Shown in pieces: positions 30,784 to 53,427 of a stretch of 64,000 nucleotides of DNA. The translations under genes were made by a program, and so were the position numbers. Every line of letters starts with the position of its first letter. Position 1 is the first letter of the stretch. The notes under the pieces were generated by a model. That model had not been told where the DNA came from. It saw only the letters and a list, made by a program, of their open reading frames with translations, and did no database searches. The stretch lies in contig NZ_JAVHUY010000035.1 in assembly GCF_031085175.1 (NCBI RefSeq), positions 1 to 64,000 on the forward strand. The letters run 5' to 3'. The stretch comes from Phytohabitans maris (GTDB lineage Bacteria > Actinomycetota > Actinomycetes > Mycobacteriales > Micromonosporaceae).

Positions 30784-30797
30784 ATGGTTAGCCCATT
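30784..30797. promoter_or_regulatory. Block B operator-like motif, site 1
   Basis: ATGGTTAGCCCATT lies 39 bp before the ferredoxin start. It matches site 2 (ATGGTTAGACCAT, minus strand) at 12 of 13 positions, and the other sites listed for this block. The preceding TTGTGATGATCC...TAGTAT may be the promoter itself. A repressor or activator site is inferred from recurrence. Confidence 0.6.
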
Positions 30798-30835
30798 CTT
30801 AGTCGCGTTTCCATACCGCGAGAGGTGACCGTTTC

Positions 30836-31159
30836 GTGCCCAGAGTGACCTTCCTCGGCCCTTCCGGCGTGGCCAGGGCTGTCGAGGCCCGCACGGGCGA
30901 CTCCCTGATGGCGGTCGCGGTGCGCAACGGCATCCCCGGAATCGTCGGAGAGTGCGGCGGCAACGCCTCCTGCGCGACCTGCCACGTGTACGTCGACGAC
31001 GCCTTCCAATCGCGGGTCGGTCCGCCCAACGACGTGGAGGAGGACCTGCTCGACCTGGGCGTCAGCGACCGGCGCGAGTCCAGCCGGCTGGCCTGCCAGA
31101 TCGCTCTGACCGAGGAGCTCGACGGCCTCGTCGTGCACACAGCGGACGAGCGGTTGTGA
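30836..31159 (+). CDS. Putidaredoxin-type [2Fe-2S] ferredoxin
   Basis: The 107-residue protein has the cysteine pattern Cx5Cx2C...C (Cys40, Cys46, Cys49 in ECGGNASCATCH and Cys87 in RLACQIA), typical of adrenodoxin/putidaredoxin-type ferredoxins. These carry electrons from an FAD reductase to a P450 or oxygenase. AGAGGTGA stands 8 nt before the GTG start. Its stop overlaps the reductase gene as GTGA. The Rieske oxygenase at 38382, which has no reductase of its own nearby, is the likely acceptor. Confidence 0.92.
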   Translation: MPRVTFLGPSGVARAVEARTGDSLMAVAVRNGIPGIVGECGGNASCATCHVYVDDAFQSRVGPPNDVEEDLLDLGVSDRRESSRLACQIALTEELDGLVVHTADERL

Positions 31160-32415
31160 CGGGCGGCGCCTTGGTCGTGGGGGCGAGCCAGGCCGGCGTG
31201 CAGCTCGCCGTCTCGCTCCGCCGGGCCGGCTACCGCGGACCGGTGACGCTGGTCGGGGCGGAGAACCATCCTCCGTACCAGAGGCCGCCGCTGTCCAAGG
31301 CGTTCCTGACCGGAAAGGCCGACGCGACCACGTTGCATCTGCGCACGCCGGAGTTCTACCGGGAACACGGCATCGACCTGGTAACCGGCGAGCGGGTCAC
31401 CCACCTGGAGGTGGACGCGGACGGCGCCGGACGCGCGCGCACCGCAGGCGGCCGGACGCTCCCCTTCGACCGGCTCGCACTGGCGACCGGCGCCCGCCCC
31501 CGCCGGCTCGAGGTGCCGGGCGCGCACCTCGATGGCGTGCTGCACCTGCGCGACCTGGACAGTGCGACACGGCTGCGGCAGCGGCTCACCGCGGGGGCCA
31601 CCCTCGTGGTCGTCGGCGGTGGCTTCATCGGTCTCGAGACCGCGGCCGTAGCGTCCGCGCTGGGTGCGAAGGTCACCGTCGTCGAGGCGGCCGGCCGGGC
31701 GATGTCCCGCGTGGTCGCGCCCGCCGTGTCCGCGTTCTTCCAGGAGGCCCACGCGCGGCGCGGGGTCGAGGTGCGGCTCGGCGCGGCCGTCGCGGAGTTC
31801 CTCGGCGGGCAGGGGCGGATCACCGGCGTCGCGCTCGCCGACGGCACCGTGCTGCCCGCCGAAACGGTGGTCGTGGGTATCGGCGTGGTGCCCCGCACCG
31901 ACCTGGCCACGGATCTCGACCTCGCCTGCGACGGCGGCGTGCTCGTCGATGCCTGCGGCCGCACGTCGCGACCGTCCATCGTGGCCGCCGGTGACTGCGT
32001 CGCCGCGCCGCATCCCACCCGCCCCGGCCAGCGGATCCGGCTGGAGAGCGTGCCAGCCGCCATCGCGCAGGCCCGCGCGGCCGGGGCAACGCTCGCCGGC
32101 CAACCCCAGCCGAACCAGGAGGTGCCCTGGTTCTGGTCCGACCAGTTCGACCTCAAGCTGCAGATGGCCGGACTCACCGACGGGTACGACCGCCACGTGC
32201 TGCGCGGCGACCCCGGGGACGAACGCTTCTCGGTGCTGTACTACCGCAGCGGGTCATTCGTCGCCATCCACTCGGTCAACGCTCCCGCTGACTACGTGGC
32301 CGGCCGGGCGGCCCTGGCCCGTGGCGCCTCGATCCCGCCGGAGCCGGCCGCCGACCCGACCAGGAGCCTCAGGTCGCTCATCACCCCGACCGCCGCCGTA
32401 CCGGCCGCTCAGTAG
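31156..32415 (+). CDS. FAD-dependent ferredoxin reductase
   Basis: The 419-residue reductase has two dinucleotide motifs, VVGASQAGVQLAVSLR for FAD and VVVGGGFIGLETA for NAD(P)H. It also has the PPYQRPPLSKAFL segment and the SIVAAGDC FAD-contact motif of putidaredoxin/rubredoxin reductases, and a C-terminal reductase_C domain (WFWSDQFDLKLQ). It passes electrons from NADH to the ferredoxin encoded directly before it. Its end overlaps the convergent LigJ-family gene by 7 bp. Confidence 0.93.
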   Translation: MTGGALVVGASQAGVQLAVSLRRAGYRGPVTLVGAENHPPYQRPPLSKAFLTGKADATTLHLRTPEFYREHGIDLVTGERVTHLEVDADGAGRARTAGGRTLPFDRLALATGARPRRLEVPGAHLDGVLHLRDLDSATRLRQRLTAGATLVVVGGGFIGLETAAVASALGAKVTVVEAAGRAMSRVVAPAVSAFFQEAHARRGVEVRLGAAVAEFLGGQGRITGVALADGTVLPAETVVVGIGVVPRTDLATDLDLACDGGVLVDACGRTSRPSIVAAGDCVAAPHPTRPGQRIRLESVPAAIAQARAAGATLAGQPQPNQEVPWFWSDQFDLKLQMAGLTDGYDRHVLRGDPGDERFSVLYYRSGSFVAIHSVNAPADYVAGRAALARGASIPPEPAADPTRSLRSLITPTAAVPAAQ

Positions 32416-33395
32416 GGCAGCTGCGGGTAGACCCGCCGCGCGTTGCCGGCGTAGACCTTCTGCCGGTCCTCCGGGGTGAGGTCGAGGCGCTCGACGTACC
32501 GCCGGGTGTCGTCCCACGCGCCGCCGGTGTTCGGGTCGACACCGCGTACGGCGCCGAGCATCTCGGAGGCGAAGAGCACGTTGTCCGCCCCGATGACGTC
32601 GAGCAGCAGCCGTACGCCCGGCTCGTGGTAGACGCACGTGTCGAACCAGACGTTGGAGAGCAACGCCGACGGGTCCGGCCAGCCGTACCGCTCGGCGAGC
32701 CCGCGGAACCGCCCCCAGTGGTACGGCACCGCGCCCCCGCCGTGCGGAACGACCAGTCGCAGTCCAGGAAAGCGGGTGAACAGGTCGCTGCCCATCAGCT
32801 GCACGAAGGCGGCCGTGTCGGCGTTGAGGTAGTGCGCGCCGAGCGTGTGCGCGTTCGGGTTGCACGAGGCGGAGACGTGCACCATCGCCGGCACGTCCAG
32901 CTCGACCAGCGCCTCGTAGAGCGGGTACCAGGCGGGGTCGGTCAGCGGCCGGCCGGACCAGAAGCCACCGGACGGATCCGGGTTGAGGTTGCAGCCGACG
33001 AAGCCAAGCTCCGCCACGCACCGGCGCAGCTCGCGCACCGGCTCGTCGAGGGAGCCGTCCGGCGTCTGCGGCAGCTGGCACACGGCGGCGAACCGGCGCG
33101 GAAACAGCGCCACCACCCGGTGGACCAGATCGTTGCTGACCCGGGCCCACTCCGCGGCGGCTGCGGGGCCGGGCACGTGATGGCCCATCGCGGACGCCTT
33201 GGGCGAGAACAGCGTCAGGTCGATCCCGCGCTCGTCCATGTGCGCGAGCTGCTTTCCCTCGACACTCTCCCGGATCTCGTCGTCCGATATGGAGGGTGGC
33301 GAGACCCTCTCACCGCCGGCGGCGAGGCGAGCGGCGCGGAAGCGGTCCAGCGCCGCGGGGGCCGTCGTGTAGTGACCGTGGCAGTCGATGATCAT
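32409..33395 (-). CDS. ligJ: 4-oxalomesaconate hydratase (LigJ family)
   Basis: The 328-residue amidohydrolase-fold protein starts with [13 protein letters not shown], then [49 protein letters not shown] and [14 protein letters not shown]. These blocks are those I know from LigJ, which hydrates 4-oxalomesaconate to 4-carboxy-4-hydroxy-2-oxoadipate in the protocatechuate/gallate 4,5-cleavage pathway. It overlaps the LigK-type aldolase gene by ATGA (33392-33395), so the two consecutive steps are coupled. The dehydrogenase that would make its substrate is not certain in this window. Confidence 0.85.
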
Positions 33396-34087
33396 CCGGT
33401 GCCCTCCGCGGCGTGGTCCACATAGGTCAGTCCCTTGCGGCGCAGCCGCTCGCGCATGCCGGACATGTCGAGGCCGAGCTCGCCGGTCGCGTACCGCGCG
33501 CGAGTCCGCGCCTCCCGGGCGTCCCTGTCTCGGGCGGCCTCGGCCACCGCGGCGGCCTCCGTACGCCGCACCACGACCACGCCGTCGTCGTCGGCGATCA
33601 CCACGTCGCCGGGTGCGACCGCCTGCCCGGCACAGACCACCGGTACGTTGACGCTGCCCAGCGTCTCCTTGACCGTGCCCTGCGCGCTGACGTGCCGGGA
33701 CCAGACCGGGAAGCCCATCGCGGTGAGCCGGGCGACGTCGCGGCAGCCGGCGTCGATGACCAGCCCCACCGCTCCCCGGTACTGGGCGGCAGTGGCCAGT
33801 AGCTCGCCGAAGTAGCCGGCGTCACACGGCGAGGTGGGCGCCACGACGAGGATGTCGCCGGGCTGGACCAGCTCCATCGCGACGTGCAGCATCCAGTTGT
33901 CGGCCGGCGGCACGCTGATCGTCAGCGCGCTCCCGGCGACGTGGGCGCCGGCGTAGATCGGGCGGAGCGCCGAGGAGAGCAGCCCGGTGCGCCCCTGCGC
34001 CTCGTGCACGGTGGCGACGTCGAGTGCCGCGCAGGCGGCCAGGATCTCCGGGGCGGGACGGGGTGCGCCGCGGACCACTGTGGACAC
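33392..34087 (-). CDS. ligK: RraA-like 4-carboxy-4-hydroxy-2-oxoadipate aldolase (LigK type)
   Basis: The 231-residue RraA-fold protein has the metal/substrate motif [10 protein letters not shown] ... [17 protein letters not shown] and a C-terminal helix pair as in class II pyruvate aldolases of this family. These split 4-carboxy-4-hydroxy-2-oxoadipate into pyruvate and oxaloacetate. Linkage with a LigJ-family hydratase makes the aldolase role much more likely than the RNase-E-regulator role of RraA. The GTG start at 34087 follows the stop of the dehydrogenase gene by 2 bp. Confidence 0.82.
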
Positions 34088-34089
34088 GG

Positions 34090-35205
34090 TCAGCCCCACG
34101 GGAGCACGGACACGTGGACGACGTCCTCGCCCGCCTCGCCGCCGACGCTGCGGATCGCCTCCGGCACGGCGTCGATGCCGAACGTGTGCGTGGTCAGCCG
34201 CTCCAACGGGAACCGACGCGACGCGAGCTGGGCGACGGCGAGCTCGCAGGAGCGGTAGCTGTGGCCCCGCGCGCTCCTGAGGGTGATCGCCTTCTCGGTC
34301 ATCAGCTTGACCGGGAAGTCCGGGAAGCTCGCCAGCTCGCCCTGGATCAGCAGCGTGCCGCCGCGCCGCTTGAGCACGTCCACGCCGAGCAGCACCGGGC
34401 CGGTGCCGGCGCCGGCCGTGCAGTCCAGCACCACGTCGACGCCGCGGCCTCCGGTGAGCTCGGCGACCCGGCTGCGCACGTCCTCGGCGTCCACGTCGAT
34501 CACGTGGTCGGCGCCGAGGTCGGCGGCGAGCTTCAGCCGCGCGGCGTCCCGGGCGGTGCCGGAGACGATGATCTGCGAGGCGCCGGCCTGCTTGCACGCC
34601 ACCACCTGCGACAGGCCCTGCTGGCCGGGACCCTGCACGAGCACCCGGCTGTCGTACCCGACACCGGCGTCGAAGAGCGCCCACTCGATTCCGTTGGAGA
34701 GCGGAGTGAGGATGCCGGCCAGCTCCATCGGCAGGTCGGCGGGGATCCGGTGCAGCACCGCGTTCCACGGCAGGTACATGTAGCCGGCGAAGCCGCCCCA
34801 CAGGTGGTACGGGTTCGTAGCGGAGGTGTAGCCATAGCGGCGGGCGTCCGGGTTGGTCCGCCAGTCGGTGGCCACGCAGTGCCGGTACTCGCCCTGGTGG
34901 CACCAGTCGCAGGCGAAGCAGGGCACGTAGTGCTCGACGAAGACCCGGTCGCCCTCGCGGAAACCCTTGCGGCGCACGAAGTCCGGGCCGGCGCGGACGA
35001 TCGTCCCGACGTTCTCGTGGCCCATGATGACCGGTTCCTGGATGACCGGCTTGGCGTACATCTTCACGTCGGTGCCGCAGATGCCGGCGACCTCGACCCG
35101 CATCAGCGCCCCGTCGGCGGGGATCTCAGGAAGCGGGAACTCGCGCATCTCGATGGCGCGCGCGCCGGTCCGCACGGCGGCGAGTACTTTTTCCGTCACC
35201 AGCAT
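34090..35205 (-). CDS. Zinc-dependent alcohol dehydrogenase (MDR family)
   Basis: The 371-residue enzyme has catalytic zinc ligands Cys43 (GICGTDV) and His63-Glu64 (GHE), and a structural zinc cluster Cys96, Cys99, Cys102, Cys110. The coenzyme region ([22 protein letters not shown]) is a variant GxGxxG motif. It could oxidise a hydroxy intermediate in block B, for example a dihydrodiol or hemiacetal, but that is inferred. There is no ribosome site before the ATG; the putative operator site 2 ends only 3 bp upstream, so the message may be leaderless. Confidence 0.88.
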
Positions 35206-35208
35206 AGT

Positions 35209-35221
35209 ATGGTCTAACCAT
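35209..35221. promoter_or_regulatory. Block B operator-like motif, site 2 (perfect palindrome arms)
   Basis: ATGGT-CTA-ACCAT is a perfect 5-bp-arm palindrome, and contains TGGTCTAACCA, which agrees with the TnGTnnnACnA pattern described for FadR-subfamily GntR regulators. Read on the minus strand (ATGGTTAGACCAT) it matches site 1. It lies between the divergent dehydrogenase (start 35205) and the decarboxylase-like gene (35255), where it can control both. Confidence 0.65.
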
Positions 35222-35254
35222 TAGTCAAACTCAAGATCGGCCAATCGGGAGGCG

Positions 35255-36181
35255 ATGGTGGCGCCGACACTCCGCGCGGTGACCCGCACTCAGGGCAACA
35301 ACGCCGACGTCACGTCTGGGCGGGTGCCGGTCGAGGGCTTCACGCTCGCGTTCGAGGAGGTGCCGGTCCTGGTCGACGCGTTCCGCCGGATGGTGCGGGA
35401 GCTGGCGTACGACGTCTGCGAGATGGCGTTCACCACGTACCTCTGCGCCCGCGAACACGGCGTGCCGTTCACCGCGCTGCCGGTCTTCCTGGTGCGCGGG
35501 TTCCACCACGGCGCGATCGTCCGGGCGGCCGGCGGCCCGGTGCGGCACCCGAAGGACCTGGAGGGGCGGCGGGTCGGCGTCAACCGCGGATACACGGTGA
35601 CCACCGGCGTCTGGGCGCGGGCGGTGCTGGCCCGGGAGTACGGCGTCGACCTCGACCGGGTCACCTGGGTGCCCTCCGGCGACGAACACGTCGAGGCGTA
35701 CCGGCCGCCCGCGAACGTGGCTCCGCTCGGCCCGGGACGCTCGCTGAAACGGGCACTGCTCGACGGCGACGTCGACGCGGCGGTCGGCGTCGGCGCGGAC
35801 GGCCCGGACATCGTGCCGCTGGTTCCCGACCCGGACGAGGCCGGGTACGCCGCGCTGCGCACCGGCGGGCTCTACCCGATCAACCACCTGGTCGTGGTCC
35901 GCGACGACCTGCTCGCCGCACACCCCTCCCTCGCCACGGCGCTCACCCGGGCGTTCACGGCGGCGAAGGAGGCGTACGTGCGGCGGCTGGCGGATGGAGT
36001 GGTGGCCGATCCGACCGACGCCATGTACGCGCGGGTGATGCGCGAGACCCGCGCCGATCCACTCCCGTACGGCGTGGCGGCCAACCGGCCGATGATCGAC
36101 GAGCTGATCGAGAACGCCCTGCGGCAGCGGATCCTCACTCGCGCCCCCGCGGCGGAGAGCCTCTTCGCGGCCGGAAGCTAG
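35255..36181 (+). CDS. 4,5-dihydroxyphthalate decarboxylase-like protein (periplasmic-binding fold)
   Basis: The 308-residue protein has the two-lobed solute-binding fold (DLEGRRVGVNRGYTVTTGVW, PVFLVRGFHHGAIV) but no signal peptide, so it acts in the cytoplasm. This combination is known for 4,5-dihydroxyphthalate decarboxylase (Pht5 type), which forms protocatechuate. Neighbours LigJ, LigK and a phthalate-dioxygenase-like Rieske protein support an aromatic decarboxylase. A true binding protein is unlikely without a secretion signal. It ends 4 bp into the convergent hydrolase gene. Confidence 0.72.
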   Translation: MVAPTLRAVTRTQGNNADVTSGRVPVEGFTLAFEEVPVLVDAFRRMVRELAYDVCEMAFTTYLCAREHGVPFTALPVFLVRGFHHGAIVRAAGGPVRHPKDLEGRRVGVNRGYTVTTGVWARAVLAREYGVDLDRVTWVPSGDEHVEAYRPPANVAPLGPGRSLKRALLDGDVDAAVGVGADGPDIVPLVPDPDEAGYAALRTGGLYPINHLVVVRDDLLAAHPSLATALTRAFTAAKEAYVRRLADGVVADPTDAMYARVMRETRADPLPYGVAANRPMIDELIENALRQRILTRAPAAESLFAAGS

Positions 36182-37023
36182 CCGCGCAGGAAGTCCAGCA
36201 GCACCGGAATGGTGGCCTCCTCGGTCTGGCCGGCGACCCGCATGTCCCAGTGACGGGCGGCGGGCAGGCACTCCTGCAGGTACCGCGCTGCGGAGGGGGC
36301 GTGCGAGGTGTCCTCCCCCGGCACGACGAGCGCCGGCGCGGCCACCCGCATCAGCTCCTCGGGCTCGGGGCCCGGTACGGTGTCGCGGTCGAAAAGGGTG
36401 CGGGCGGTGCCGCGGAGCACGAGCAGGTACCACTGCGGGTCGAGGGCGGCGTACGCCGCGGCGAAGGCCGGGTCCGACCTGATCACCGGCGCCCACGGGC
36501 CGACCCGGGCGTCCTCGCTGAACCCCGCCCGTCCGGCCCGGACGAGGTCGACCACGGCCCTCGGCCCGGCGCCGCGGACGAAGACCTCGTGCTCGGCGAA
36601 GCGGGCGTGCTGGAGCATCCGGTACCGGACGCCGCCGGCCGGCGAGTAGAGGACCAGGCGGTCGGTCGCCTCCGGGTACCGCACGGCGAACTCGACCGCC
36701 ACCGAGCATCCGACGCAGCCGCCCATCAGGTGCGCCCGGGGCAGGCCCAGATGGTCCAGCAGCGCCTTGCCCTGCACCGCGTAGTCGTGCCAGGACAGAC
36801 TCTGCACCCGCCCGCCGGAGCGACCCGACTCGCGCCGGTCGAAGAGCACGAGGCGGAACTCCGTCGAGAGCCGGGGCACCAGGTTGAGCCCGCGGTAGAC
36901 GCCGTGGCGGCGCCAGTTGTCGGCCGTCGCGTTGAAGCCACCGGGTGCGAACATCAGCAGTGCTGGGCCGTCCCCGACGACCTCGTAGTGCGTCGCGATC
37001 CCGTCGAGGTCCACAGTGGGCAT
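36178..37023 (-). CDS. Alpha/beta hydrolase with cysteine nucleophile elbow
   Basis: The 281-residue hydrolase has the fold markers APGG (oxyanion side), FDRRESGRS and the nucleophile elbow LMGGCVGC. The elbow places Cys103 where Ser is usual (GxSxG to GxCxG). The acid is likely the Asp of VVPGEDTSH. A Cys nucleophile is known in dienelactone hydrolase, which acts in aromatic degradation, but this protein looks more like the general hydrolase_1 group. Role: hydrolysis of a ring-cleavage or ester intermediate, by context. It is the last gene of the Rieske operon. Confidence 0.8.
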   Translation of the reverse strand: MPTVDLDGIATHYEVVGDGPALLMFAPGGFNATADNWRRHGVYRGLNLVPRLSTEFRLVLFDRRESGRSGGRVQSLSWHDYAVQGKALLDHLGLPRAHLMGGCVGCSVAVEFAVRYPEATDRLVLYSPAGGVRYRMLQHARFAEHEVFVRGAGPRAVVDLVRAGRAGFSEDARVGPWAPVIRSDPAFAAAYAALDPQWYLLVLRGTARTLFDRDTVPGPEPEELMRVAAPALVVPGEDTSHAPSAARYLQECLPAARHWDMRVAGQTEEATIPVLLDFLRG

Positions 37024-37035
37024 ACCGGTCCTCCG

Positions 37036-37860
37036 TCAGCCGCGCACGCCGCGCAGGTGCCGCCCGGCGCGCACGTCCGCCGCGTAGGCGCCGATCGCGT
37101 CGAACGCCACCTGGGCCACGTTCGCGTAGGCGCTGGGCGGGTCGTCCCTGTCCAATGAGGACGCTGAGTAGCCGAGCGCTGCCGCCGCCATCCGCATGCG
37201 GCCGTCGAGCCACGGCCCGCCGCCGAAGCCGCCGAGCACCGGGATCCCCACCGCCGCGACCACCGCGGGCCCGGCGACCGGGCCGGAGTTGGTGAAGTTG
37301 AGCAGTGCGGCACCGGCGGACTCGAGCAGCTTCGCCTCGGCCACCATCCGCTCGGTCATCGCCGCCGGCACCTCCTGCCCGGTGCCCGGCTCCGCGGAGT
37401 AGATCACGCCGTACCGCAGCGCGGTCTGCGGGGTGATGCCGAACTGCGCGAACACGGGGATGCCGGCCCGCGTCACCGCCTGGACCGCCTCCGGGAAGTC
37501 CGCGGCCCCGTCCAGCTTGACCAGGTCGGCGCCGCCCTCCTTGACCAGCCGAATCGCCGCCCGCACCGCGCTGTCCGCCCCCTCCTGCAGCGGCCCGTAC
37601 GGAAAGTCGCAGCTGACCAAAGCACGGGTGACACCGCGCCGCACCGCCCGGCAGACGGTCACCATCTCCTCCATCGTGACCTCGAACGGCGTGCGGTGGC
37701 CCCACATGTTGACCCCGACCGTGTCGCCCACCGAGACGATCTCCACACCGGCGCGGTCGACGATCCGAGCGATCTGGTAGTCCCAGGCCACCACACCGAC
37801 GATCTTCTCGCCCCGCGCCTTCATCCCGTGCAGCCGCGGGAGCGTCACCTCATCTGCCAT
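37036..37860 (-). CDS. PanB-like (ketopantoate hydroxymethyltransferase superfamily) protein
   Basis: The 274-residue TIM-barrel protein resembles 3-methyl-2-oxobutanoate hydroxymethyltransferase: IVGVVAWDYQIARIVDRAGVEIVSVGDTVGV (with the DxVG-like metal loop altered to GDTVG), EGGADLVKLDG, and GIPVFAQFGITPQ where PanB has GIPVMGHLGLTPQ. The conserved PanB HxGLTPQ histidine is replaced by Phe (QFGITPQ). No other pantothenate genes are near. It may catalyse an aldol or C-C cleavage reaction on a 2-oxoacid of the pathway rather than make pantothenate. Confidence 0.75.
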   Translation of the reverse strand: MADEVTLPRLHGMKARGEKIVGVVAWDYQIARIVDRAGVEIVSVGDTVGVNMWGHRTPFEVTMEEMVTVCRAVRRGVTRALVSCDFPYGPLQEGADSAVRAAIRLVKEGGADLVKLDGAADFPEAVQAVTRAGIPVFAQFGITPQTALRYGVIYSAEPGTGQEVPAAMTERMVAEAKLLESAGAALLNFTNSGPVAGPAVVAAVGIPVLGGFGGGPWLDGRMRMAAAALGYSASSLDRDDPPSAYANVAQVAFDAIGAYAADVRAGRHLRGVRG

Positions 37861-37881
37861 CGCGGCCCTCCATCCGTGCCG

Positions 37882-38370
37882 TCACGCGCGCAGCGCCGTC
37901 AGCACCGCGGCGATGTCGTCCTCGTCGCCGGTCAGCAGCAGCACCCGGGCGTACGGCCGCAGCATCGCGACGGCGTCGAGTGCGCCGGCGCCGCCGTCGA
38001 CCACCAGGCCGGCGGTCATGGTGCCGCGTGCCCGGCAGTGCTCGCCGACCGCGGCCGCCGCCCGCGCCCCGTCCGGTGACGTGGCGACCAGCACCGCGAC
38101 GTCGGCACCGTCCAGCTCCGCCGAGATGTCCACTGTGGAGACTCCGACCAGCGGCCGCACCCGCCCGTCGCCGGCGTGCCCGAAGAACCGGGCGGTCGCC
38201 CACGGCCGCGCCGCGATCCTTCGCACGATCTCCTCCGCGGGCCCGTCCAGCGCGAACACCCGGGCGCCCCGGGACGGGACGATCGGCGCGTCGATCCGGA
38301 ACCGGGCCTCCGCCGCCGTGGCCGCCCGCGCGCAGCTGTTGAGCAGGACCGGTCGCATCGTCGTCGGCAT
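37882..38370 (-). CDS. Small protein of unknown function with FtsZ-like segment
   Basis: The 162-residue product contains LDGADVAVLVATSPDGARAAAAVGEHCRARG, in two parts resembling the region around the tubulin/FtsZ nucleotide loop (ADMVFV ... GGGTGTG) but without the glycine-rich signature. I could not assign a family. It lies between the Rieske oxygenase (11 bp upstream) and the PanB-like gene (21 bp downstream), so it is co-transcribed and probably a helper or regulatory subunit. The ATG at 38370 has only a weak ribosome site. Confidence 0.6.
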   Translation of the reverse strand: MPTTMRPVLLNSCARAATAAEARFRIDAPIVPSRGARVFALDGPAEEIVRRIAARPWATARFFGHAGDGRVRPLVGVSTVDISAELDGADVAVLVATSPDGARAAAAVGEHCRARGTMTAGLVVDGGAGALDAVAMLRPYARVLLLTGDEDDIAAVLTALRA

Positions 38371-38381
38371 CACGTGGCCCG

Positions 38382-39668: not shown

Positions 39669-39696
39669 ACAGCACCTCCACGCTTGAGCGCAAAAC

Positions 39697-39707
39697 ATAA
39701 TACCATT
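39697..39707. promoter_or_regulatory. Block B operator-like motif, weak variant
   Basis: ATAATACCATT lies 29 bp before the Rieske gene start, in the 65-bp gap between it and the end of the bicupin gene. Seven of nine core positions agree with TTAGACCAT of site 2. It could serve an internal promoter of the operon; this is the least certain of the listed sites. Confidence 0.3.
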
Positions 39708-39733
39708 TGAACATCAGAGCAATCGCGGAACGG

Positions 39734-40849: not shown

Positions 40850-40902
40850 CGTCGCCTCCTCGCGATCCCGTTGACCGGTGATCGTAGCCTAGCTAAGGTC
40901 TT

Positions 40903-40916
40903 AATGTTAGTCCAAT
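40903..40916. promoter_or_regulatory. Block B operator-like motif, site 3
   Basis: AATGTTAGTCCAAT lies between the divergent bicupin (start 40849) and EutA-type (start 40937) genes. It differs by a single base from site 5b (AATGTCAGTCCAAT at 53414) and aligns with ATGGTTAGnCCAT of sites 1 and 2. Confidence 0.6.
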
Positions 40917-40936
40917 CGTTTGCCGAGGTGGGATGC

Positions 40937-43357: not shown

Positions 43358-43380
43358 GGCCGGTCGGCGCGTGGCCTCCC

Positions 43381-46147: not shown

Positions 46148-47084
46148 AGCGCACCCGCGGGTCCAGCATCGCGTACACGATGTCGACGATCAGGTTGATC
46201 ACCACGTAGGTGAGCGTCACCAGCAGGACGATCGCCTGGATGACTGGGTAGTCCCGCCGCTCGATGCTGGACAGCAGCAGCGTGCCGAGGCCGGGCAGGT
46301 TGAACACCCGCTCGGTGACGAGACTGCCACCGAGGAGGCTGCCCAGGTTGAGCCCGACCACGGTGACGATGGGGATCAGCGCGTTCTTCAGCGCGTGCCG
46401 GTACAGGATGCGGCGCCGCCCGAAGCCGGACGCCTGCGCGGTGACCACGTAGTCCTGCGACAGCACCTCCAGCATGGAAGTGCGGCTCATCCGGGTGACG
46501 ATCGCCGCGTACAGCGCGCCGAGGGTGATGGCGGGAAGCACGAAGCCCTGGAGCGAGGTCCACAGCCCCTCGCTGAGCGGCCGGTACCCGGACGTGGGGA
46601 ACCAGCGCAGGTTTACCGCGAAGACCAGCATCAGCATCATGCCGACGAAGAAGCTGGGCACCGAGACGCCGACCAGGCTGGCGGAGAGCGCCACGCGGTC
46701 CGCCGCCTTCCCCTTGTGCGCGGCCGCCACCACGCCGGCGGGAATCGCCAGCACGACGGTCAGGAGCGTGGCGAGCAGCGCCAGGGTCAGCGTGACCGGC
46801 ACCCGCGGCATGATCAGGTCGGTGACCGGGCGGCGCAGCTGGACCGAGTTGCCGAAGTCGCCGCGCGCCAGGTCACCGAGCCAGGTCAGGAACTGCGTGT
46901 AGATCGGATCGTTGAGGTGCAGCTGCTCGCGCAGCCCTTCGATCTGCTCCGGGGTGGCGTTCTCCCCCACCATGGCCAGCACCGGGTCACCAGGCACCAC
47001 CCGGACCAGGATGAACAGGCCGACGGCGAGAAGAAAGAGGGTCGGTATCGTGTGCAGCAGCCGCTTGACGATGTACCTGAACAC
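46134..47084 (-). CDS. ABC importer permease (OppB-like)
   Basis: The 316-residue permease has the typical opening MFRYIVKRLLHTIPTLFLLAV, the RVVPGDPV motif, LHLNDPIYTQFL and the EAA-type region VTAQASGFGRRRILYRHALKN. AAGGAGGTGA stands 5 nt before the GTG start, an unusually strong ribosome site. It follows the binding-protein gene by 47 bp. Confidence 0.92.
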   Translation of the reverse strand: MFRYIVKRLLHTIPTLFLLAVGLFILVRVVPGDPVLAMVGENATPEQIEGLREQLHLNDPIYTQFLTWLGDLARGDFGNSVQLRRPVTDLIMPRVPVTLTLALLATLLTVVLAIPAGVVAAAHKGKAADRVALSASLVGVSVPSFFVGMMLMLVFAVNLRWFPTSGYRPLSEGLWTSLQGFVLPAITLGALYAAIVTRMSRTSMLEVLSQDYVVTAQASGFGRRRILYRHALKNALIPIVTVVGLNLGSLLGGSLVTERVFNLPGLGTLLLSSIERRDYPVIQAIVLLVTLTYVVINLIVDIVYAMLDPRVRYADK

Positions 47085-47131
47085 CGGTCACCTCCTTCTT
47101 CTCGTCCGCGCCCAGTCCGTCACGAAGGCGT

Positions 47132-48736
47132 CTAGTCCGCGACCCAGACGTTCCACATCCGCACGGAGTCGAAGGTGTCCGCCTGCAGCCCGTTGACCCG
47201 GTCGTTGACGCCGTAGAGCGTCGAGCTCAGGTAGAGCGGCAGGATCACCGCGTCGTCCTTGAGCTTCTTCTCGAGCTGGGCGAAGAGCGCCTTGCGCTTC
47301 TCCCGGTCGACCGTGGCGGTCGCCTCGTCGTAGATCTTGTCGTACTCCGGGTCGCAGTAGCCGTACCGCTTGCTGGCGTTGCAGTAGTAACGCACGTAGA
47401 ACACGTCGGGCGTGGTCATGAACGTGCCGCCGGCCGAGTTCATCTGGTACTTGCCGCCGGCGCCCCGGGACAGGAACGTGGCATGCTCCAGCTTGTTCAC
47501 CTTGACGTTGAGGCCGACCGCGGAGAGCTGCTGCTCGGCAACGACGGCGTTGGAGCCCTGGTACGGCGGGCCGCCGGCGATCAGCTCGATCGGCTCGTTG
47601 TGGTAGCCGGCCTCGGCGAGCGTCTGCTTGGCCTTCGCCGGGTCGTAGTTGTACGGCCAGTAGTCGTGCGCGCCAGGCACGTACCAGTTCACCTCCGGCG
47701 GCACGTACCCGCCGGTGACCCGGCCGTAGCCGAAGTTCGTGGTGTCCAGGAACTTCTGCCGGTCCAGCGCGTAGGTGATCGCCTGCCGCACCTTGAGGTT
47801 GTCGATCGGCGGGCCGGAGGCGAGGTTGAGCGAGAGCACCACCCAGCTCGACCCGTCCGCCTTGAGCACGCTCACGTCCGGCAGGGCGTCCAGCCGCTCC
47901 ACTTCGGAGGGTGCCACCCGGATGTCCACGTCGAACTGCCCGGTCTCCAGGCCCGCGGCCGCCGCACCGTCCTCCGGCACGACCTGGAACTCGATCCGCT
48001 CCAGCATCGCCTGCCGGCGCCCGGAGAGACCGTCCGGCTCGGCGTCCACCGGCTTGTACTTGTCGAACGGCACGATCACCGCCCGCACCTCGGGCTCGAA
48101 CGACTCGACCTTGTACGGCCCGCTGCCGATCGGGCGGGTCGCCTGGGCGCCGTTGTCCGCCGAGCCCTTGGGTACGATCACCGCACTGATCGGGGCGGCC
48201 AGGTCGTCCACAAGGGACGCCTTAGGCTCGTTCAGCTTGATGGAGACGGTCAGGGGGTCCACCAGGTCGACGCTCTTCACCTCGCCGAGCTCGTTGTCGA
48301 ACTCAGCGTTGGCGTTGAAGTAGTCCAGCGAGTACTTCACGTCCTCGGCGGTGATCGGCTGGTCGTTGTGGAAGTACAGCCCTTCGCGGATCTTGAAGGT
48401 GAACTCGGTGGCGTTGTCGTTGACGGTCCACGACTCGGCGATCAGTGGCTTGGGTTCCAGCCGGCTGTCGACCGTCACCAGCCCTTCGAAGACCTGCCGG
48501 TAGAACTGCCAGCTCGACGTGTTGCTGTCGCTGAACGGGTCGGAGCTGCGCATGCCCGCGTACTGGCGGACCACGATGCTCCCGTGGGGCGCGTCTCCCG
48601 GCGCGGGCCGGGCGCTGTCGCCGCCGCTGCTGTCGCCGCTCTCTGACGAGCTGCACGCCGTGGCCACCAGGACCGTGGCCAGTACCACGGCGACGGCTCG
48701 GGGCACCGTGCGCGCTCGGGGTAAGAAAGAAGTCAT
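47132..48736 (-). CDS. Extracellular solute-binding lipoprotein, family 5
   Basis: The 534-residue protein has an N-terminal lipoprotein signal with lipobox VATACSSS and the family 5 fold (LIAESWTVNDNATEFTFKIREGL, FHNDQPITAEDVKYSLDY, VRQAITYALDRQ). The ATG at 48736 has GGAG 9 nt before it; a TTG at 48775 would put 13 extra residues in front of the signal and overlap the operator. It is the first gene of the importer operon, with site 4 of the block B motif 38-59 bp upstream. Confidence 0.92.
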   Translation of the reverse strand: MTSFLPRARTVPRAVAVVLATVLVATACSSSESGDSSGGDSARPAPGDAPHGSIVVRQYAGMRSSDPFSDSNTSSWQFYRQVFEGLVTVDSRLEPKPLIAESWTVNDNATEFTFKIREGLYFHNDQPITAEDVKYSLDYFNANAEFDNELGEVKSVDLVDPLTVSIKLNEPKASLVDDLAAPISAVIVPKGSADNGAQATRPIGSGPYKVESFEPEVRAVIVPFDKYKPVDAEPDGLSGRRQAMLERIEFQVVPEDGAAAAGLETGQFDVDIRVAPSEVERLDALPDVSVLKADGSSWVVLSLNLASGPPIDNLKVRQAITYALDRQKFLDTTNFGYGRVTGGYVPPEVNWYVPGAHDYWPYNYDPAKAKQTLAEAGYHNEPIELIAGGPPYQGSNAVVAEQQLSAVGLNVKVNKLEHATFLSRGAGGKYQMNSAGGTFMTTPDVFYVRYYCNASKRYGYCDPEYDKIYDEATATVDREKRKALFAQLEKKLKDDAVILPLYLSSTLYGVNDRVNGLQADTFDSVRMWNVWVAD

Positions 48737-48773
48737 CTCTGTTCTCCGCCTCCAGCCGATGGCCCGGATGATC

Positions 48774-48795
48774 AATGGACCATTGGACTAACCTT
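48774..48795. promoter_or_regulatory. Block B operator-like motif, site 4
   Basis: The 22-bp element holds an 11-bp palindrome AATGG-A-CCATT (48774-48784) fused to ATTGGACTAACCTT (48782-48795), which reads AAGGTTAGTCCAAT on the minus strand. It is directly upstream of the importer operon. Confidence 0.6.
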
Positions 48796-48897
48796 AAAGT
48801 CCTTGTGTTTCGCCGCAAGATGCCGGGATGGCCCGCGGCCGGATGTAATCGGATCGTTGCCCGACCTCCACCGGACGGGCGGTGCCGTGTTGGCAGG

Positions 48898-49773
48898 TCA
48901 GGCGCCTGCCACCGCCAACGCGTCCACCCGCCGGGCCAGGAAGTCGCCGACCGTGGCGGCGATGTCGTCCGGTGCGTCCACGTGCATGTAGTGACTCGTG
49001 TGGAAGAACCGCACCTCTGTGCCGGGGATCCCGCTGCCGTACGCGAGCTTCTCGCCCTGCCGCCGCTCGTCGCTCGTGGAGGCGACCAGTAGGAGGGTCG
49101 GCGCGGTCACGTTCGCCAGGTAAGGGCCGACCTCGTCGGAGTCGACGCGGGCCGCCCGGAGCTGGGCCAGCACCTCGCGGGGCAACTTGCCGACCAGCTT
49201 GCCGCCCTCCTCGCGCAGCCCGAAGCGGAGCCCGCGCAGCCGGTCCTCGGACCAGACGGCGAGCGGGTGCGCCCGCTTGGCGTTCGCGATCGCGTCGTCG
49301 AAGGTATCGAACGGCCCCAGCCCGCGACCCACCCGCTCGTAGAACGCGTCCGCCGCCTCCAGCGAAGGCCACACCATCCGCGCCGGGTCGACCAGCACCA
49401 GACCGGCGACCTCGTCGGGGAAACGGCCGGCGATGTACGCACCCATCCAGCCGCCCCGAGAGTGCCCGATCAGCGTCGCCGGGCGATCGGTCAGCTGTTC
49501 CCGCACCGCGAGGACGTCCTGGGCACAGACGTCCGGCGTGTACCCGGTGGACGGCCGCTCGCTGTCCCCACAGCCGCGGTGATCCAGGGCGACGACGTGC
49601 ACCCGGTCGCCGAAGCGCTCGGCGAGCCGCTTTCCCAGCGGGTACCAGTTCCAGCAGTTCGAGCCGCAGCCGTGCAGCAGCAGGACCAGGTGGGCGCCGT
49701 CGCGGCCCCGCCACTCGATGCCGTGCTGTCGGATGCCGTTCGCCTGGATGTTGATGTCGGAGGGTTCGGACAC
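48898..49773 (-). CDS. Alpha/beta hydrolase
   Basis: The 291-residue serine hydrolase has the oxyanion segment LLHGCGSN, LDHRGCGDS, the nucleophile Ser105 in GHSRGG and the catalytic His in SHYMHVD. The chain layout resembles MhpC-type C-C hydrolases and enol-lactone hydrolases, but the substrate is unknown. It closes the five-gene operon that starts with the two deacetylase-like genes. Confidence 0.88.
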   Translation of the reverse strand: MSEPSDINIQANGIRQHGIEWRGRDGAHLVLLLHGCGSNCWNWYPLGKRLAERFGDRVHVVALDHRGCGDSERPSTGYTPDVCAQDVLAVREQLTDRPATLIGHSRGGWMGAYIAGRFPDEVAGLVLVDPARMVWPSLEAADAFYERVGRGLGPFDTFDDAIANAKRAHPLAVWSEDRLRGLRFGLREEGGKLVGKLPREVLAQLRAARVDSDEVGPYLANVTAPTLLLVASTSDERRQGEKLAYGSGIPGTEVRFFHTSHYMHVDAPDDIAATVGDFLARRVDALAVAGA

Positions 49774-49791
49774 TGCTTCCCGTACCTTTCG

Positions 49792-50658
49792 CTAGAACAC
49801 GCTGCGGGGCGCCGCCGTATGCGCTGGCGCCCCCGCGTCGCCGGTGCCGGAGCCGCCGTCGACGTGCAGGATCTCCCCGGTCACCCAGCCGGACTCCGGA
49901 GCCGCGAGGAAGGTGGCGGCCGCGACGACGTCCTCGGGCCTGCCGAGCCGGCCCAGCGGCAGGCTGCGCCGCACCGCCGCGCGGTAGTCGTCGGTGGAGA
50001 CGTGCCCCGACCGCGGCACGAGGCCGGGCGCGACCGCGTTCACCGTGATGTCGTGCTCCCCCAGCTCCAGGGCGAGCACCTTGGTGAGCATGTTGACCGC
50101 CGCCTTGGCGGCGGAGTGGGAGGCGCCGCCCTTGCGGGCCTTCCGCGCGGCGCCCGAGCTGAACAGGATGATCCGGCCGCCCCGCCCGCTGGCGACCATC
50201 GCCCGCCCGGCCGCCTGCGCCACATTGAAGCTGCCGGTGACCGTGCTCTCCAACTCCTGCCGGAACAGCTCCGCCGGCATCCGCAGCGCATGCCCGAACG
50301 AGCTGCGCCCGACGCTGCAGACCAGGATGTCCAGCCCGCCGTGGATCCGGGTGACCGTGTCGACCCAGCGGGCGCAGTCGGCCGGCTCGCGCACGTCGCC
50401 GGTGAGCGCCACCACCCCCGGTGGCGGATCCCCCGGCGCCCAGCTGGCCGCCGCGGCGTCGTCCACGACGGTGCCGGTGCCAGGGCCCGCCGCGACCACC
50501 TCCCCCGCCGCGGCGGCCAGCGGCTCCGGGCGCAGGTCGGTCAGCGCCAGGTGTACCCCGCCGGCCCGCCACGCCCGCGCGATCGCCAGTCCCATGTTCT
50601 CGCCCACGCCGGCGATCAGTGCGACCTTGCCGTCCAACCGGAAGCTCGGGTACGCCAT
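49792..50658 (-). CDS. Short-chain dehydrogenase/reductase with His at the catalytic Tyr position
   Basis: The 288-residue Rossmann protein has the nucleotide motif AGVGENMGLAIA (TGxxxGxG variant), a CSVG in place of NNAG, the catalytic Ser167 or Ser168 (FSSGAA), and Lys185 of the YxxxK motif. The Tyr is His181 (HSAAK). Without Tyr the usual proton transfer cannot work in the standard way, so activity may be altered or lost, or another residue may stand in. A GTG 6 bp upstream (50664) is an alternative start, overlapping the upstream stop. C-terminal HVDGGSG is normal for the family. Confidence 0.85.
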   Translation of the reverse strand: MAYPSFRLDGKVALIAGVGENMGLAIARAWRAGGVHLALTDLRPEPLAAAAGEVVAAGPGTGTVVDDAAAASWAPGDPPPGVVALTGDVREPADCARWVDTVTRIHGGLDILVCSVGRSSFGHALRMPAELFRQELESTVTGSFNVAQAAGRAMVASGRGGRIILFSSGAARKARKGGASHSAAKAAVNMLTKVLALELGEHDITVNAVAPGLVPRSGHVSTDDYRAAVRRSLPLGRLGRPEDVVAAATFLAAPESGWVTGEILHVDGGSGTGDAGAPAHTAAPRSVF

Positions 50659-50660
50659 GC

Positions 50661-51503
50661 TCACCGCACCTCGTCCAGGACGGTCGCGTCGAACCCGTCC
50701 AGCAGCGGCGCGAGCGCCTGGAACAGCGGCATCGGCACGCCCGCCTCCTCGGCGACCGCAATCGACCGCTCCACCCCTCGCCGCGGGTGGTTGGGATGGT
50801 GGTACGCCCAGTCGGTCAGCGCCCGGTTGGCACCGCTGCCGGCGCCGATGAACGGCCGCAGCTTGTTCGGCTCCACGCCCAACGCGCGGGCCAGCCGCAG
50901 CGCCTCGTAGTCGGCTCGGAGGGCGGCGAAGAGCAGCAGGTTGTTGACCATCTTGGCGACCTGCCCGGCACCGACCGGGCCGACCAGGCACACATGCGTG
51001 GCGAACGCGGCCAGCGCCGGACGGCAGGCGTCCAGCACCGCTTCCGCGCCGCCGCACATCAGCGTCAAGCCGCCGGTACGGGCCCCGTGCTCGCCGCCGA
51101 CCAGGGCGGCGTCCATCAGGTGTACCCGCTGGGCGGCGGCCCGGCCCGCCATCTCCCGGCAGGTGTCCGGGCGGATCGACGCGCTCACCGCGACGACCGT
51201 GCCCGGGCGGGCGGCGCCGAGCACGCCGTCCGGCCCGCCGAGCACGTCGCGCACCTGCGCGTCGTCGACCACCACGACGAGGACCAGGTCACTGGCGGCG
51301 GCGACCTCGGCGGCACCGGCGACGGACCGGGCCCCCGCCTCGGCCGCGGCCGCCCGCGCGCCGGCGCTGACGTCGGTGGCCACCACGCTCCAGCGGTCGC
51401 GCAGCAGCCAGCCGCCGATCTCCCGGCCCATCTTGCCCCAGCCCACGACGCCCACCGTGGACTTCTCCCGGGTCAGCGGCGCCGGCGCCACCAGCTCAGG
51501 CAT
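50661..51503 (-). CDS. 3-Hydroxyisobutyrate dehydrogenase-family NAD(P)-dependent oxidoreductase
   Basis: The 280-residue protein has an N-terminal Rossmann motif VGVVGWGKMGREI (GxGxxG with W in place of the first x-G step), a substrate loop DAALVGGEHGARTGGLTLMCGG and the catalytic lysine in GAGQVAKMVNN. Usual substrates are beta-hydroxy acids or tartronate semialdehyde. It overlaps the deacetylase-like gene by 8 bp. Confidence 0.87.
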   Translation of the reverse strand: MPELVAPAPLTREKSTVGVVGWGKMGREIGGWLLRDRWSVVATDVSAGARAAAAEAGARSVAGAAEVAAASDLVLVVVVDDAQVRDVLGGPDGVLGAARPGTVVAVSASIRPDTCREMAGRAAAQRVHLMDAALVGGEHGARTGGLTLMCGGAEAVLDACRPALAAFATHVCLVGPVGAGQVAKMVNNLLLFAALRADYEALRLARALGVEPNKLRPFIGAGSGANRALTDWAYHHPNHPRRGVERSIAVAEEAGVPMPLFQALAPLLDGFDATVLDEVR

Positions 51504-52416
51504 CGACGGTTTCCCGCGGCGTCGCCGGCTCGCCCGCCGGGTGGCTGGCGGACGCCAGTACCGCGGTGGCCACCTCGTCGCTGGTGGACAACCACACGCC
51601 GTCGCGACCCTGGATGTGGTCGATCAGCTTGGCCAGCGCGTCGCTGCGGCCGGGCCGACCGCTGATGAACGGGTGCAGCGAGTAAGGCACGTACACCGGC
51701 GCGTCCACCGACTCCGCGTGCAGCGAGTCGAAGGTGCTGCGCCAGATCGCGAACGCCACGTCCGGGTCGCCGCCGAAGCCGCTGCGCCCGTACGTGCGCA
51801 TGTCGCCGTACGGCTGCCGGACCACCTCGACGCCGGTCCGGTCGCCCATGGTCAGCAGGTACGGCAGGTCGGTGATGAACGAGTTGCTGTTGTACTTCAG
51901 CCCTTCCTCCAGTACCAGCTCCGGCGTGTGCGGGCTCTGGTGGCAGGAGCGCCAGCCGGTCACCGGCGCCCCGGTCAGCTGTCGCAGCAGCCCGAGCGTG
52001 GTCTGGAAGATCTCCCGCTCCTGCTCCTTCGGCAGGTTGGTGGCGATCTCGTGGTGGTAGCCGTGGCCGGCGATCTCGTGCCCATCCGCGGCGATGGCCA
52101 GGACGGTGTCCGGGTAGTGCTCGGCGATCGCCCCGCAGATCGTGAACGTCGCCTTTACGTCCCGCTCGCGCAGCACCCGCAGCACCCGGGCGATGCCCTT
52201 GGTGCGCCCGTACTCCTGCTCGGTGTACGTCTCGTAGTCCACCCGCCCGTTCGACCCGACCCGGGTGTTGGCGGCCTCGTTGCCCTGGTAGTTGAAGACG
52301 ATGTTGACGGCCGTCCGGTAGGGCGCCGGCCAGGTGATCTGGTCGTCGATGAAGCGCTCCGTTGCGGCCGACCCGCTGTCGGTCCGCTGCCGGCACACCG
52401 CGCAGTCGTGAAGCAT
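51496..52416 (-). CDS. Polysaccharide deacetylase-fold protein, PuuE/cyclic-imidase-like (copy 1)
   Basis: The 306-residue protein has a NodB-type fold: IVFNYQGNEA at the position of the TFDD metal motif, HEIAGHGYHH (HxxxH metal site), GWRSCHQSPH for the catalytic loop, and YSLHPFI for the last motif. This sub-group without a signal peptide includes cytoplasmic PuuE-type allantoinases and cyclic imide hydrolases rather than cell-wall deacetylases. The first Asp of the metal triad is Asn here (FNYQ). GGAGG stands 7 nt before the ATG. Confidence 0.8.
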   Translation of the reverse strand: MLHDCAVCRQRTDSGSAATERFIDDQITWPAPYRTAVNIVFNYQGNEAANTRVGSNGRVDYETYTEQEYGRTKGIARVLRVLRERDVKATFTICGAIAEHYPDTVLAIAADGHEIAGHGYHHEIATNLPKEQEREIFQTTLGLLRQLTGAPVTGWRSCHQSPHTPELVLEEGLKYNSNSFITDLPYLLTMGDRTGVEVVRQPYGDMRTYGRSGFGGDPDVAFAIWRSTFDSLHAESVDAPVYVPYSLHPFISGRPGRSDALAKLIDHIQGRDGVWLSTSDEVATAVLASASHPAGEPATPRETVDA

Positions 52417-52444
52417 TCTGGACACCTCCGGGGTGAGGGGCTGG

Positions 52445-53311
52445 CTAGTCGAGGACGCGCTGGAAGTACTCGGCGGCGTCGCGGCGCCGGCAGATCCAGA
52501 CGTTGGGGTGGCTGCGGGCGTACTCCACACACTCGACCAGCGCCGAGATGCCGAAGGGCCGGCCGTAGTAGGTGGGGTGGAGCGTGGCCGAGACGATCCG
52601 GGGCTGGTCGCTCACCTCGCGCCGCACCTGGTCGAAGCCGCGCTTGAAGATCTCCACGTAGACGCTGGGAGGCGCGCCGAAGCGGCGAAAGAGCACCGCG
52701 TCGTTCACCTCGTCCATGCGCGGCATCGCGATGAGCTTGCGGTCGCCGTCCCGCCCGACCACGACCGGCTCGTCCGCGTGGCGGAAGTCCTTGCAGTAGC
52801 GGTACCCCTCGCGCAGGAGGCTGGCAACGGTGTGGTCACCGCGCTGTCCGCCCTGGCTGGACCAGCCGACCGGCCGTACGCCGGTCATCCGCTCCAGGAT
52901 CTCGGTGCAGCGCTGGACCTCGGCCAGGTCTTCCTTCTCGTCGAGCATGAACATCCGCTGTGCCTGGGAGTACCCGTGACCGACCAGCTCGTGTCCGGCC
53001 GCGACCAATTGGTTGGCCAGGTCGGGGTAGAGCTCGACCGCGCGAGCGCTGGTGGAGAGCGAGACCTTCACGTCCAGCTCGTCGAAGACCCGGGCGAGGC
53101 GGGGCAGGCCGGTGGTGGCGCCGTACTCGTACCACGACACCGAGGTCCAGTCGGTCTTTCCCAGCCGCCTGGCCTCCTCCGGAAACTCGGGTGTCATGGC
53201 CATCTTGGTCATCGGCAGGCCGTCCCAGGCCTCGAACGCCACCCCGATGGTGAAGATGACCTCGGTACCCGGCGGCATCTCCACATCGACGGAACCATCC
53301 ACGTCCGGCAT
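52445..53311 (-). CDS. Polysaccharide deacetylase-fold protein, PuuE/cyclic-imidase-like (copy 2)
   Basis: The 288-residue paralogue of the next gene keeps HELVGHGYSQ (second His replaced by Gln), GWSSQGGQRGDHT and ATLHPTYYGRP. The first motif is VIFTIGVAFEAWDG. Key metal residues therefore differ from copy 1, so only one copy may be fully active, or they may form a mixed assembly. GAGGAG lies 4 nt before the ATG at 53311; an ATG at 53323 would add 4 residues. It heads a five-gene operon, with two operator-like sites upstream. Confidence 0.75.
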   Translation of the reverse strand: MPDVDGSVDVEMPPGTEVIFTIGVAFEAWDGLPMTKMAMTPEFPEEARRLGKTDWTSVSWYEYGATTGLPRLARVFDELDVKVSLSTSARAVELYPDLANQLVAAGHELVGHGYSQAQRMFMLDEKEDLAEVQRCTEILERMTGVRPVGWSSQGGQRGDHTVASLLREGYRYCKDFRHADEPVVVGRDGDRKLIAMPRMDEVNDAVLFRRFGAPPSVYVEIFKRGFDQVRREVSDQPRIVSATLHPTYYGRPFGISALVECVEYARSHPNVWICRRRDAAEYFQRVLD

Positions 53312-53339
53312 GCGACTCCTCATGCATCTAGATATAACC

Positions 53340-53427
53340 ATTGGTCCATTTGCGGCGCAGCAAGGCCGACACCGGCGACCGTTGATCAGGCATTTTACAC
53401 AGGCTATGGTCATAATGTCAGTCCAAT
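53340..53427. promoter_or_regulatory. Block B operator-like motif, sites 5a and 5b
   Basis: Site 5a (ATTGGTCCATT, 53340-53350) lies 29 bp before the deacetylase-like operon. Site 5b (AATGTCAGTCCAAT, 53414-53427) lies 75 bp further upstream and matches site 3 at 13 of 14 positions. A pair of sites at one promoter could allow looping or cooperative binding. Confidence 0.55.

Follow-up and report, generated by a model that had tools for sequence, protein, structure and literature searches.

A predicted FadR-subfamily regulon with a recurring palindromic operator at a catabolic block of Phytohabitans maris

Operators of the FadR subfamily of GntR-family regulators are described by the consensus TKGT-3 nt-ACMA, with arginine at the matching regulator position linked to the G, and weaker boxes have been recorded 7–12 nt from the centre in 13 groups of the subfamily, their function left open (Suvorova et al. 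2015, PMC4494728). For Escherichia coli NanR, GGTATA repeats are bound by cooperating dimers via a 32-residue N-terminal extension (PMC8012715). The subject of the present work is a gene block at positions 30,784 to 53,427 of a 64,000-nucleotide stretch of the Phytohabitans maris genome ('the window'; contig NZ_JAVHUY010000035.1), and the GntR-family regulator encoded within it at 42608-43357.

A core close to ATGGT-N3-ACCAT recurs in the block at the promoters of ferredoxin/ferredoxin reductase, alcohol dehydrogenase-LigK-LigJ, decarboxylase, Rieske oxygenase, cupin, EutA-like, ABC transporter and deacetylase genes. The regulator encoded at 42608-43357 would, with a probability of roughly 0.85, run the block as one predicted regulon through these putative operators. 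Features shared with the FadR-subfamily operators surveyed in PMC4494728 are an AT-rich palindrome, a G-contacting arginine, sites between divergent operons and weaker extra boxes; judged from sequence, regulator and putative operator are of an already known kind. Unlike in that survey, the extra box keeps a single spacing here, with 12 bp between its centre and that of the core, and is found at more than half of the sites.

42608-43357, plus strand: GntR-family regulator with FCD domain (FadR subfamily), 249 residues; Pfam GntR E = 3.5e-21, FCD E = 5e-22

The protein combines an N-terminal winged helix with a C-terminal FCD domain, at 75.1 bits for Pfam GntR (cut-off 27) and 79.1 bits for FCD (cut-off 24.3). 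Residues R53, R63, R67 and G84 are invariant across 41 aligned regulators (that of the window, 39 foreign relatives and a paralogue from contig C16 of the same genome; one further relative, L057, was dropped as its match held a stop). Applying the offset of 18 that the 1hw1 row shows at its two ends, these four residues would fall on R35, R45, R49 and G66 of E. coli FadR, the DNA-contacting arginines and the wing glycine. The best NCBIfam model is NanR, at 134.1 bits under a curated cut-off of 260, and the protein is not assigned to NanR on this score. Likenesses to NanR (PMC8012715) are this best model, the direct-repeat GGT-type boxes and a stretch preceding the winged helix (about 26 residues here, varying among relatives as far as their starts can be judged, against the 32-residue extension of NanR); differences are the score under the cut-off, the other target genes, and the binding of (GGTATA)3 by NanR, whereas a palindromic core with one direct-repeat box is found here. 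LldR, PdhR and GlcC belong to the same subfamily and use TKGT/ACMA boxes with 3-nt spacing according to PMC4494728, but the 42608 protein scores far under the cut-offs of their NCBIfam models.

The stronger evidence comes from foreign genomes. A search of named genomes for relatives of the regulator gave 227 stretches, of which the best 80 were kept: 40 with close relatives (59-92% identity, L027-L066) and 40 with distant ones (28-37%, L067-L106). The close loci extend up to 10 kb to each side, often ended by contig ends, and supplied upstream regions of 40 regulator, 18 alcohol dehydrogenase, 15 ferredoxin, 14 cupin and 15 Rieske genes, window proteins being used solely to locate the foreign genes and the promoter sets overlapping at divergent promoters. 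De novo search by expectation maximisation recovered the same motif in each of these five sets, as a full TGGT-N3-ACCA or TCCA or with one half weak: in full for alcohol dehydrogenase (ATGGTcAGACCAttA), ferredoxin (aTTGGTnaGTCCATT) and cupin (TTATGGTCATACCAA), the left half being weak in the regulator (aAncGTCATACCAtT) and Rieske (aActGTCATACCaTT) sets. Log-likelihoods per set were 226/146/181/152/111, against 54/43/41/47/49 for the highest of four dinucleotide shuffles per set. Both these motifs and the matrix described below fit TKGT-(2-3 nt)-ACMA, the consensus taken from PMC4494728.

In the reverse direction, a matrix built from the window sites gave 134 matches in 43 loci (the 40 close foreign ones and three on C16), against a mean of 25 and a maximum of 69 for 20 column-permuted matrices; in the 40 loci of distant regulators there was no excess (81 matches against a mean of 110). 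Across many genera of actinomycetes the motif accompanies close relatives of the 42608 protein; the promoters that carry it belong to the same genes, and frequently to the regulator itself. Cores scoring at least 15, counted within the 300 bp before the start and the first 40 bp of the gene, lie at 16/16 ferredoxin, 13/15 cupin, 16/23 alcohol dehydrogenase, 19/29 decarboxylase, 29/42 regulator and 9/15 Rieske homologues; the alcohol dehydrogenase and decarboxylase counts include distant homologues, and many of these regions also trained the foreign matrix, which makes the counts descriptive, with no significance test attached. Of 145 cores in the 43 loci, 105 are near a homologue of a window gene, and in L032, L047 and L062 a core precedes the regulator gene where few or none of the block genes were found. 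Rieske homologues (68-85% identity) are present in 20 of the 40 close loci and EutA-like genes in 16, and among 148 genomes drawn from the class, regulator (E<=1e-75) and Rieske protein (E<=1e-150) occur in the same four, P. maris included.

A palindromic 15-position matrix was learned from the pooled 102 foreign upstream regions (about 85 sites), with the DNA of the window excluded, and applied to the window and to a background of 799,440 positions of the P. maris genome outside it (40 stretches of C1, C3, C4, C5 and C6; about 0.8 of 9.87 Mb). Six window sites scored 17.2 (30783), 24.0 (35208, the best in the window), 18.0 (39693), 15.9 (40902), 17.5 (48782) and 16.7 (53413), each above every background position; none of these reaches 15.9, a threshold which, as the lowest of the six, was fixed after the sites had been viewed. 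At a threshold of 14 the background holds four matches, corresponding to 0.11 expected per 22.6 kb, against eight in the block. Three window places score between 13 and 15: 33422 (coding), 44233 and 53328, the last with a score of 14.8 equalled or exceeded at two of the 799,440 background positions. The place at 44233-44247 (14.7), within the transporter genes, coincides with what is probably the start codon for an oligopeptide ABC ATPase.

30776-30797, plus strand: operator 1; core 30783-30797 TATGGTTAGCCCATT, outer half-box TTGGT 30776-30780 (score 7.4); 5' of ferredoxin/ferredoxin reductase
35208-35229, minus strand: operator 2; core 35208-35222, palindrome ATGGT-TAG-ACCAT on minus, weak outer half-box 35225-35229 (2.7)
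39693-39714, minus strand: operator 3; core 39693-39707 (AAACATAATACCATT on plus), outer half-box 39710-39714 (3.4); at the Rieske gene
40895-40916, plus strand: operator 4; core 40902-40916, outer half-box AAGGT 40895-40899 (5.9); between the divergent cupin and EutA-like genes
48775-48796, minus strand: operator 5; core 48782-48796, outer half-box ATGGA 48775-48779 (6.3); 5' of the solute-binding protein gene
53406-53427, plus strand: operator 6; core 53413-53427, outer half-box ATGGT 53406-53410 (8.7); about 110 bp before the likely deacetylase start
53328-53350, strand not assigned: borderline core 53328-53342 with outer box; score 14.8, 24 bp before the likely start 53311
42523-42537, minus strand: weak seventh site; score 9.2, overlapping the end of the EutA-like gene, 78 bp 5' of the regulator gene

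An earlier note on this DNA, made from the letters alone, had reported related elements at 30784, 35209, 40903, 48782, 53340 and 53414, and direct look-up in the window found each quoted string, that at 53340 included, at its given place. What the note described as a weaker form at 39697 is a full-strength site by the foreign matrix (core 39693). Conversely, ATTGGTCCATT at 53340 scores just 7.6 as a core of its own (53336), and is better taken as part of the borderline core 53328-53342, covering its right half together with its outer box. The note had fitted the 35209 site to a FadR-subfamily pattern; core 35208 alone among the window cores has both TKGT/ACMA boxes complete, the rest having one or both halves variant. 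This operator separates the divergent alcohol dehydrogenase and decarboxylase genes, with a core in the equivalent intergenic place in many foreign loci; it is also overlapped by the one promoter-like match of a sigma-70 scan of 29400-41000, sigma-70 and terminator scans being otherwise little informative. Three sites had been placed between divergent genes: this is clear for 35208 and 40902, while 30783, 39693 and 48782 are flanked by same-strand genes, and 53413, next to a plus-strand open reading frame (53449-53907) that has no Pfam match and may be its neighbouring gene, may or may not lie in a third such pair. A wholly intergenic location likewise holds in part, the site at 39693 overlapping the start of the longest Rieske reading frame and that at 53413 the start of the longest deacetylase reading frame.

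A plain scan of the window with up to three mismatches gave eight matches against a mean of 3.2 in 100 shuffles, three of which reached eight, and statistics from the window alone are too weak to decide recurrence. The pattern AWKGTYAGNCCAWW, written from five of the sites of the earlier note, has six exact matches in the 9.87-Mb genome, namely the five source sites and C7:135204, within what appears to be a sugar ABC permease gene; the count is partly circular, the pattern being derived from the same five sites, and evidence was therefore sought without the DNA of the window. With up to two mismatches, AWKGTYAGNCCAWW matches the genome 440 times against 469 for the reversed pattern, so near-exact sites alone are informative. 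A chance likeness of AT-rich intergenic DNA in a genome of 71% GC could account for the mildly raised window scan and the looser patterns, but would predict that permuted matrices match equally often and that the spacing varies. Neither prediction holds: permuted matrices and shuffles that preserve composition fall below the real motif, the outer box has one fixed spacing, and the six sites top the background, which makes chance scarcely credible.

The fixed spacing concerns a third box, the most unusual part of the system. Of 150 distinct cores (six from the window, the others from C16 and the foreign loci), 85 have a TGGT-like half-box exactly 8 bp outside the core on at least one side, scoring at least 2 and oriented like the inner half next to it; 200 flank shuffles gave 7.5 on average and 15 at most, and 15 other offsets gave 3 to 17. 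Reduced to one representative per genus and promoter class, the count is 43/75 against 0-10 at other offsets; a smaller excess is present at another offset (17/150 cores, 10/75 representatives). All six window cores carry the outer box at a score of at least 2, and the extended consensus with the third box is aTGGTctAATGGTcaGAC. The outer box is no more frequent beside the weaker inner half than beside the stronger (43 against 44 of 133; for strongly asymmetric sites 15 against 26 of 58), and is therefore not simply compensation for a weak half.

A three-box pattern with the 8-bp spacing, informed by the window sites and matching neither 39693 nor 48782, has four exact matches in the genome, all on C29 or C16. 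With up to one mismatch there are 16, nine of them on C29 (four, all within the block) or C16 (five), against 11 for the reversed pattern. Around other near matches in the genome, no homologue of the block's genes was found near C30:24800 and C31:66958, homologues near C14:62470 are limited to FadR-type and SDR genes, and those near C89:223134 to oligopeptide-transporter genes (25-36%) about 3.5 kb away.

Contig C16 holds a second catabolic cluster, C16:18900-47500 (L107-L109), with its own FadR-type regulator at 19052-19762, 72% identical to the 42608 protein, and the same operator type. Homologues within about 30 kb of this paralogue comprise decarboxylase (three), deacetylase, LigJ, ferredoxin, Rieske (71%), hydrolase, alcohol dehydrogenase, ferredoxin reductase, EutA (41%) and cupin (36%), and the foreign matrix reaches at least 16 at seven places (20197, 22219, 32791, 38097, 43587, 43681 and 47463) and 11.7 at 18957, 5' of the paralogue gene. 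By sequence comparison the C16 cluster, with its similar cores, supports the link between regulator type and motif, and the two regulators may share the sites. As an alternative, the paralogue would bind the window sites besides or instead of the 42608 protein, so that the block would not be the latter's private regulon. This reading, which overlaps the assignment to the 42608 protein, draws on the paralogue's own cluster and its contact helix; the window cluster encodes a regulator of its own, however, and a single regulator of this type is seen in 38 of the 40 foreign loci, L031 and L055 having two, so that the alternative appears unlikely, if worth keeping in view.

A second GntR/FCD regulator lies in the window itself, at 21545-22438, beside another gene block, and could in principle own the sites. 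Among its 15 highest-identity matches in 44 loci, however, 14 fall on 42608-type regulators at just about 29-33% identity and one elsewhere (42% over 92 residues), while the motif is present in 38 of the 40 foreign loci assembled around relatives of the 42608 protein; ownership of the sites by this or another regulator is very improbable.

Several observations weigh against control of the whole block by the 42608 protein. The contact-helix residues are shared by the C16 paralogue, which may recognise these sites too. No core at the threshold was found at 13/42 regulator and 6/15 Rieske promoters, and two of the 40 foreign loci (L059 and L065) show none at a score of 15. The site nearest the regulator's own gene, 42523, has a score matched or beaten by 47 of the 799,440 background positions; counterparts 69-77 bp before the regulator gene in L027-L029 read AGTGGTATGACATTA. 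The pattern WTGGTYAKWCCAW, with up to one mismatch, has 34 genome matches (five on C29, eight on C16) against 25 for the reversed pattern; with looser patterns barely enriched genome-wide, the signal is local and carried by strong sites. Beside most of the foreign regulators no transporter or deacetylase genes were found, and the operons at 48782 and 53413 are therefore assigned by site score, as putative members of the regulon. The proposal of the earlier note that the 42608 protein controls the block is nevertheless well supported by comparison, through the motif beside its relatives, the recurrence at the same promoters and the invariant putative contact residues.

In the mechanism proposed for the 42608 regulator, a dimer would fill the palindromic core and a second dimer would hold the outer box cooperatively. 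Binding would repress the block genes; repression is suggested because the cores are placed from over the start to about 60 bp upstream (centres 2 to 60 bp upstream of the starts used, with 53413 lying 109 bp before 53311 or inside the longest reading frame), position being the sole basis, which is a further point against the assignment. The regulator might be released when its FCD domain binds an aromatic acid or a ring-cleavage intermediate, and weak autoregulation and cross-talk with the C16 paralogue may occur. Tentatively, and at somewhat less than even odds, the operator may be a hybrid in which the FadR palindrome TGGT-N3-ACCA is joined by a NanR-like direct repeat 8 bp outside, with two dimers cooperating, perhaps via the stretch before the winged helix; in that case the extra boxes seen across the GntR family would gain a definite function, and a single operator code would be common to two paralogues of one genome, serving two aromatic pathways in parallel.

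The genes of the block, in order, are as follows.

30836-32415, plus strand: 2Fe-2S ferredoxin (30836-31159; Pfam Fer2) and ferredoxin reductase (31150-32415; Pyr_redox_2 and Reductase_C), probable operon
32409-35205, minus strand: zinc alcohol dehydrogenase (34090-35205), LigK-type aldolase (33392-34087) and LigJ-type hydratase (32409-33395), probable operon
35255-36181, plus strand: 4,5-dihydroxyphthalate decarboxylase-like protein (PDB 9jp7, E=2.6e-33)
within 36178-39698, minus strand: Rieske oxygenase (38382-39698) and unassigned protein (37882-38385), probable operon
within 36178-39698, minus strand: ketopantoate hydroxymethyltransferase-like protein (37036-37860) and alpha/beta hydrolase (36178-37023), probably the same Rieske operon
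39734-40849, minus strand: two-domain cupin, possible ring-cleavage dioxygenase (Pfam Cupin_2, two stretches; weak gentisate-type dioxygenase matches)
40937-42532, plus strand: EutA-like reactivase-family protein (Pfam EutA E=1.7e-106; NCBIfam EutA models matched under their cut-offs)
43381-48775, minus strand: oligopeptide-type ABC transporter; solute-binding protein (47132-48775; SBP_bac_5) and permeases (46134-47084 and 45242-46147; BPD_transp_1 twice)
between 43381 and 45983, minus strand: the two ATPases of the transporter (ABC_tran twice, oligo_HPY)
within 48898-53434, minus strand: two PuuE-like deacetylase-fold proteins (52445-53434, likely start 53311 as judged by eye; 51496-52530), probable operon
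within 48898-53434, minus strand: 6PGDH-type dehydrogenase (50661-51503), SDR (49792-50661) and alpha/beta hydrolase (48898-49773), probably the same deacetylase operon

The likeliest theme of the block is a phthalate-like aromatic acid entering a 4-oxalomesaconate lower pathway, predicted because LigK passes the TIGR02798 equivalog cut-off (321.1 bits against 304.5) and from the nearest solved relatives of LigJ, Rieske protein and decarboxylase. Those of the LigJ-type protein are 4-oxalomesaconate hydratases in the PDB (E=5.9e-132, with the next enzyme kind at 2.4e-56). The Rieske protein is closest to an isophthalate dioxygenase (9ina, E=2.4e-137), a sequence relation from which its substrate is predicted at most; this enzyme of Comamonas testosteroni KF1 (9INA) belongs to a two-component system of oxygenase and one reductase (PMC12445078), whereas ferredoxin and ferredoxin reductase are separate proteins in the present block. 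The ring-cleavage step would perhaps be taken by the cupin.

The unassigned 37882-38385 protein (167 residues, no Pfam match) has homologues (44-59%) in 19 of the 20 foreign loci having the Rieske gene. Of the 40 foreign loci, 16 have an EutA-like gene close to the regulator, 14 of these with a cupin homologue as well; ethanolamine ammonia-lyase was not recognised among the annotated block genes, the EutA-like protein notwithstanding. The adjacent PuuE-like deacetylase-fold genes (51496-53434) are possible amidohydrolases of the pathway. A proline racemase-family gene (29600-30685) just 5' of operator 1 reads towards it and is not obviously under it, and past the other edge of the block, five fibronectin type III stretches occur in the 1733-residue protein encoded at 54777-59978.

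The main text of PMC4494728 contains none of the words phthalate, aromatic and vanillate, and no description of this regulon was found in the open-licence literature, judged by titles and the starts of abstracts. For a catabolic block recurring in many actinomycete genera, the comparison provides a regulator, an operator and a set of targets that can be tested, and the strictly spaced third box makes the role of extra GntR-family half-sites testable on many natural variants.

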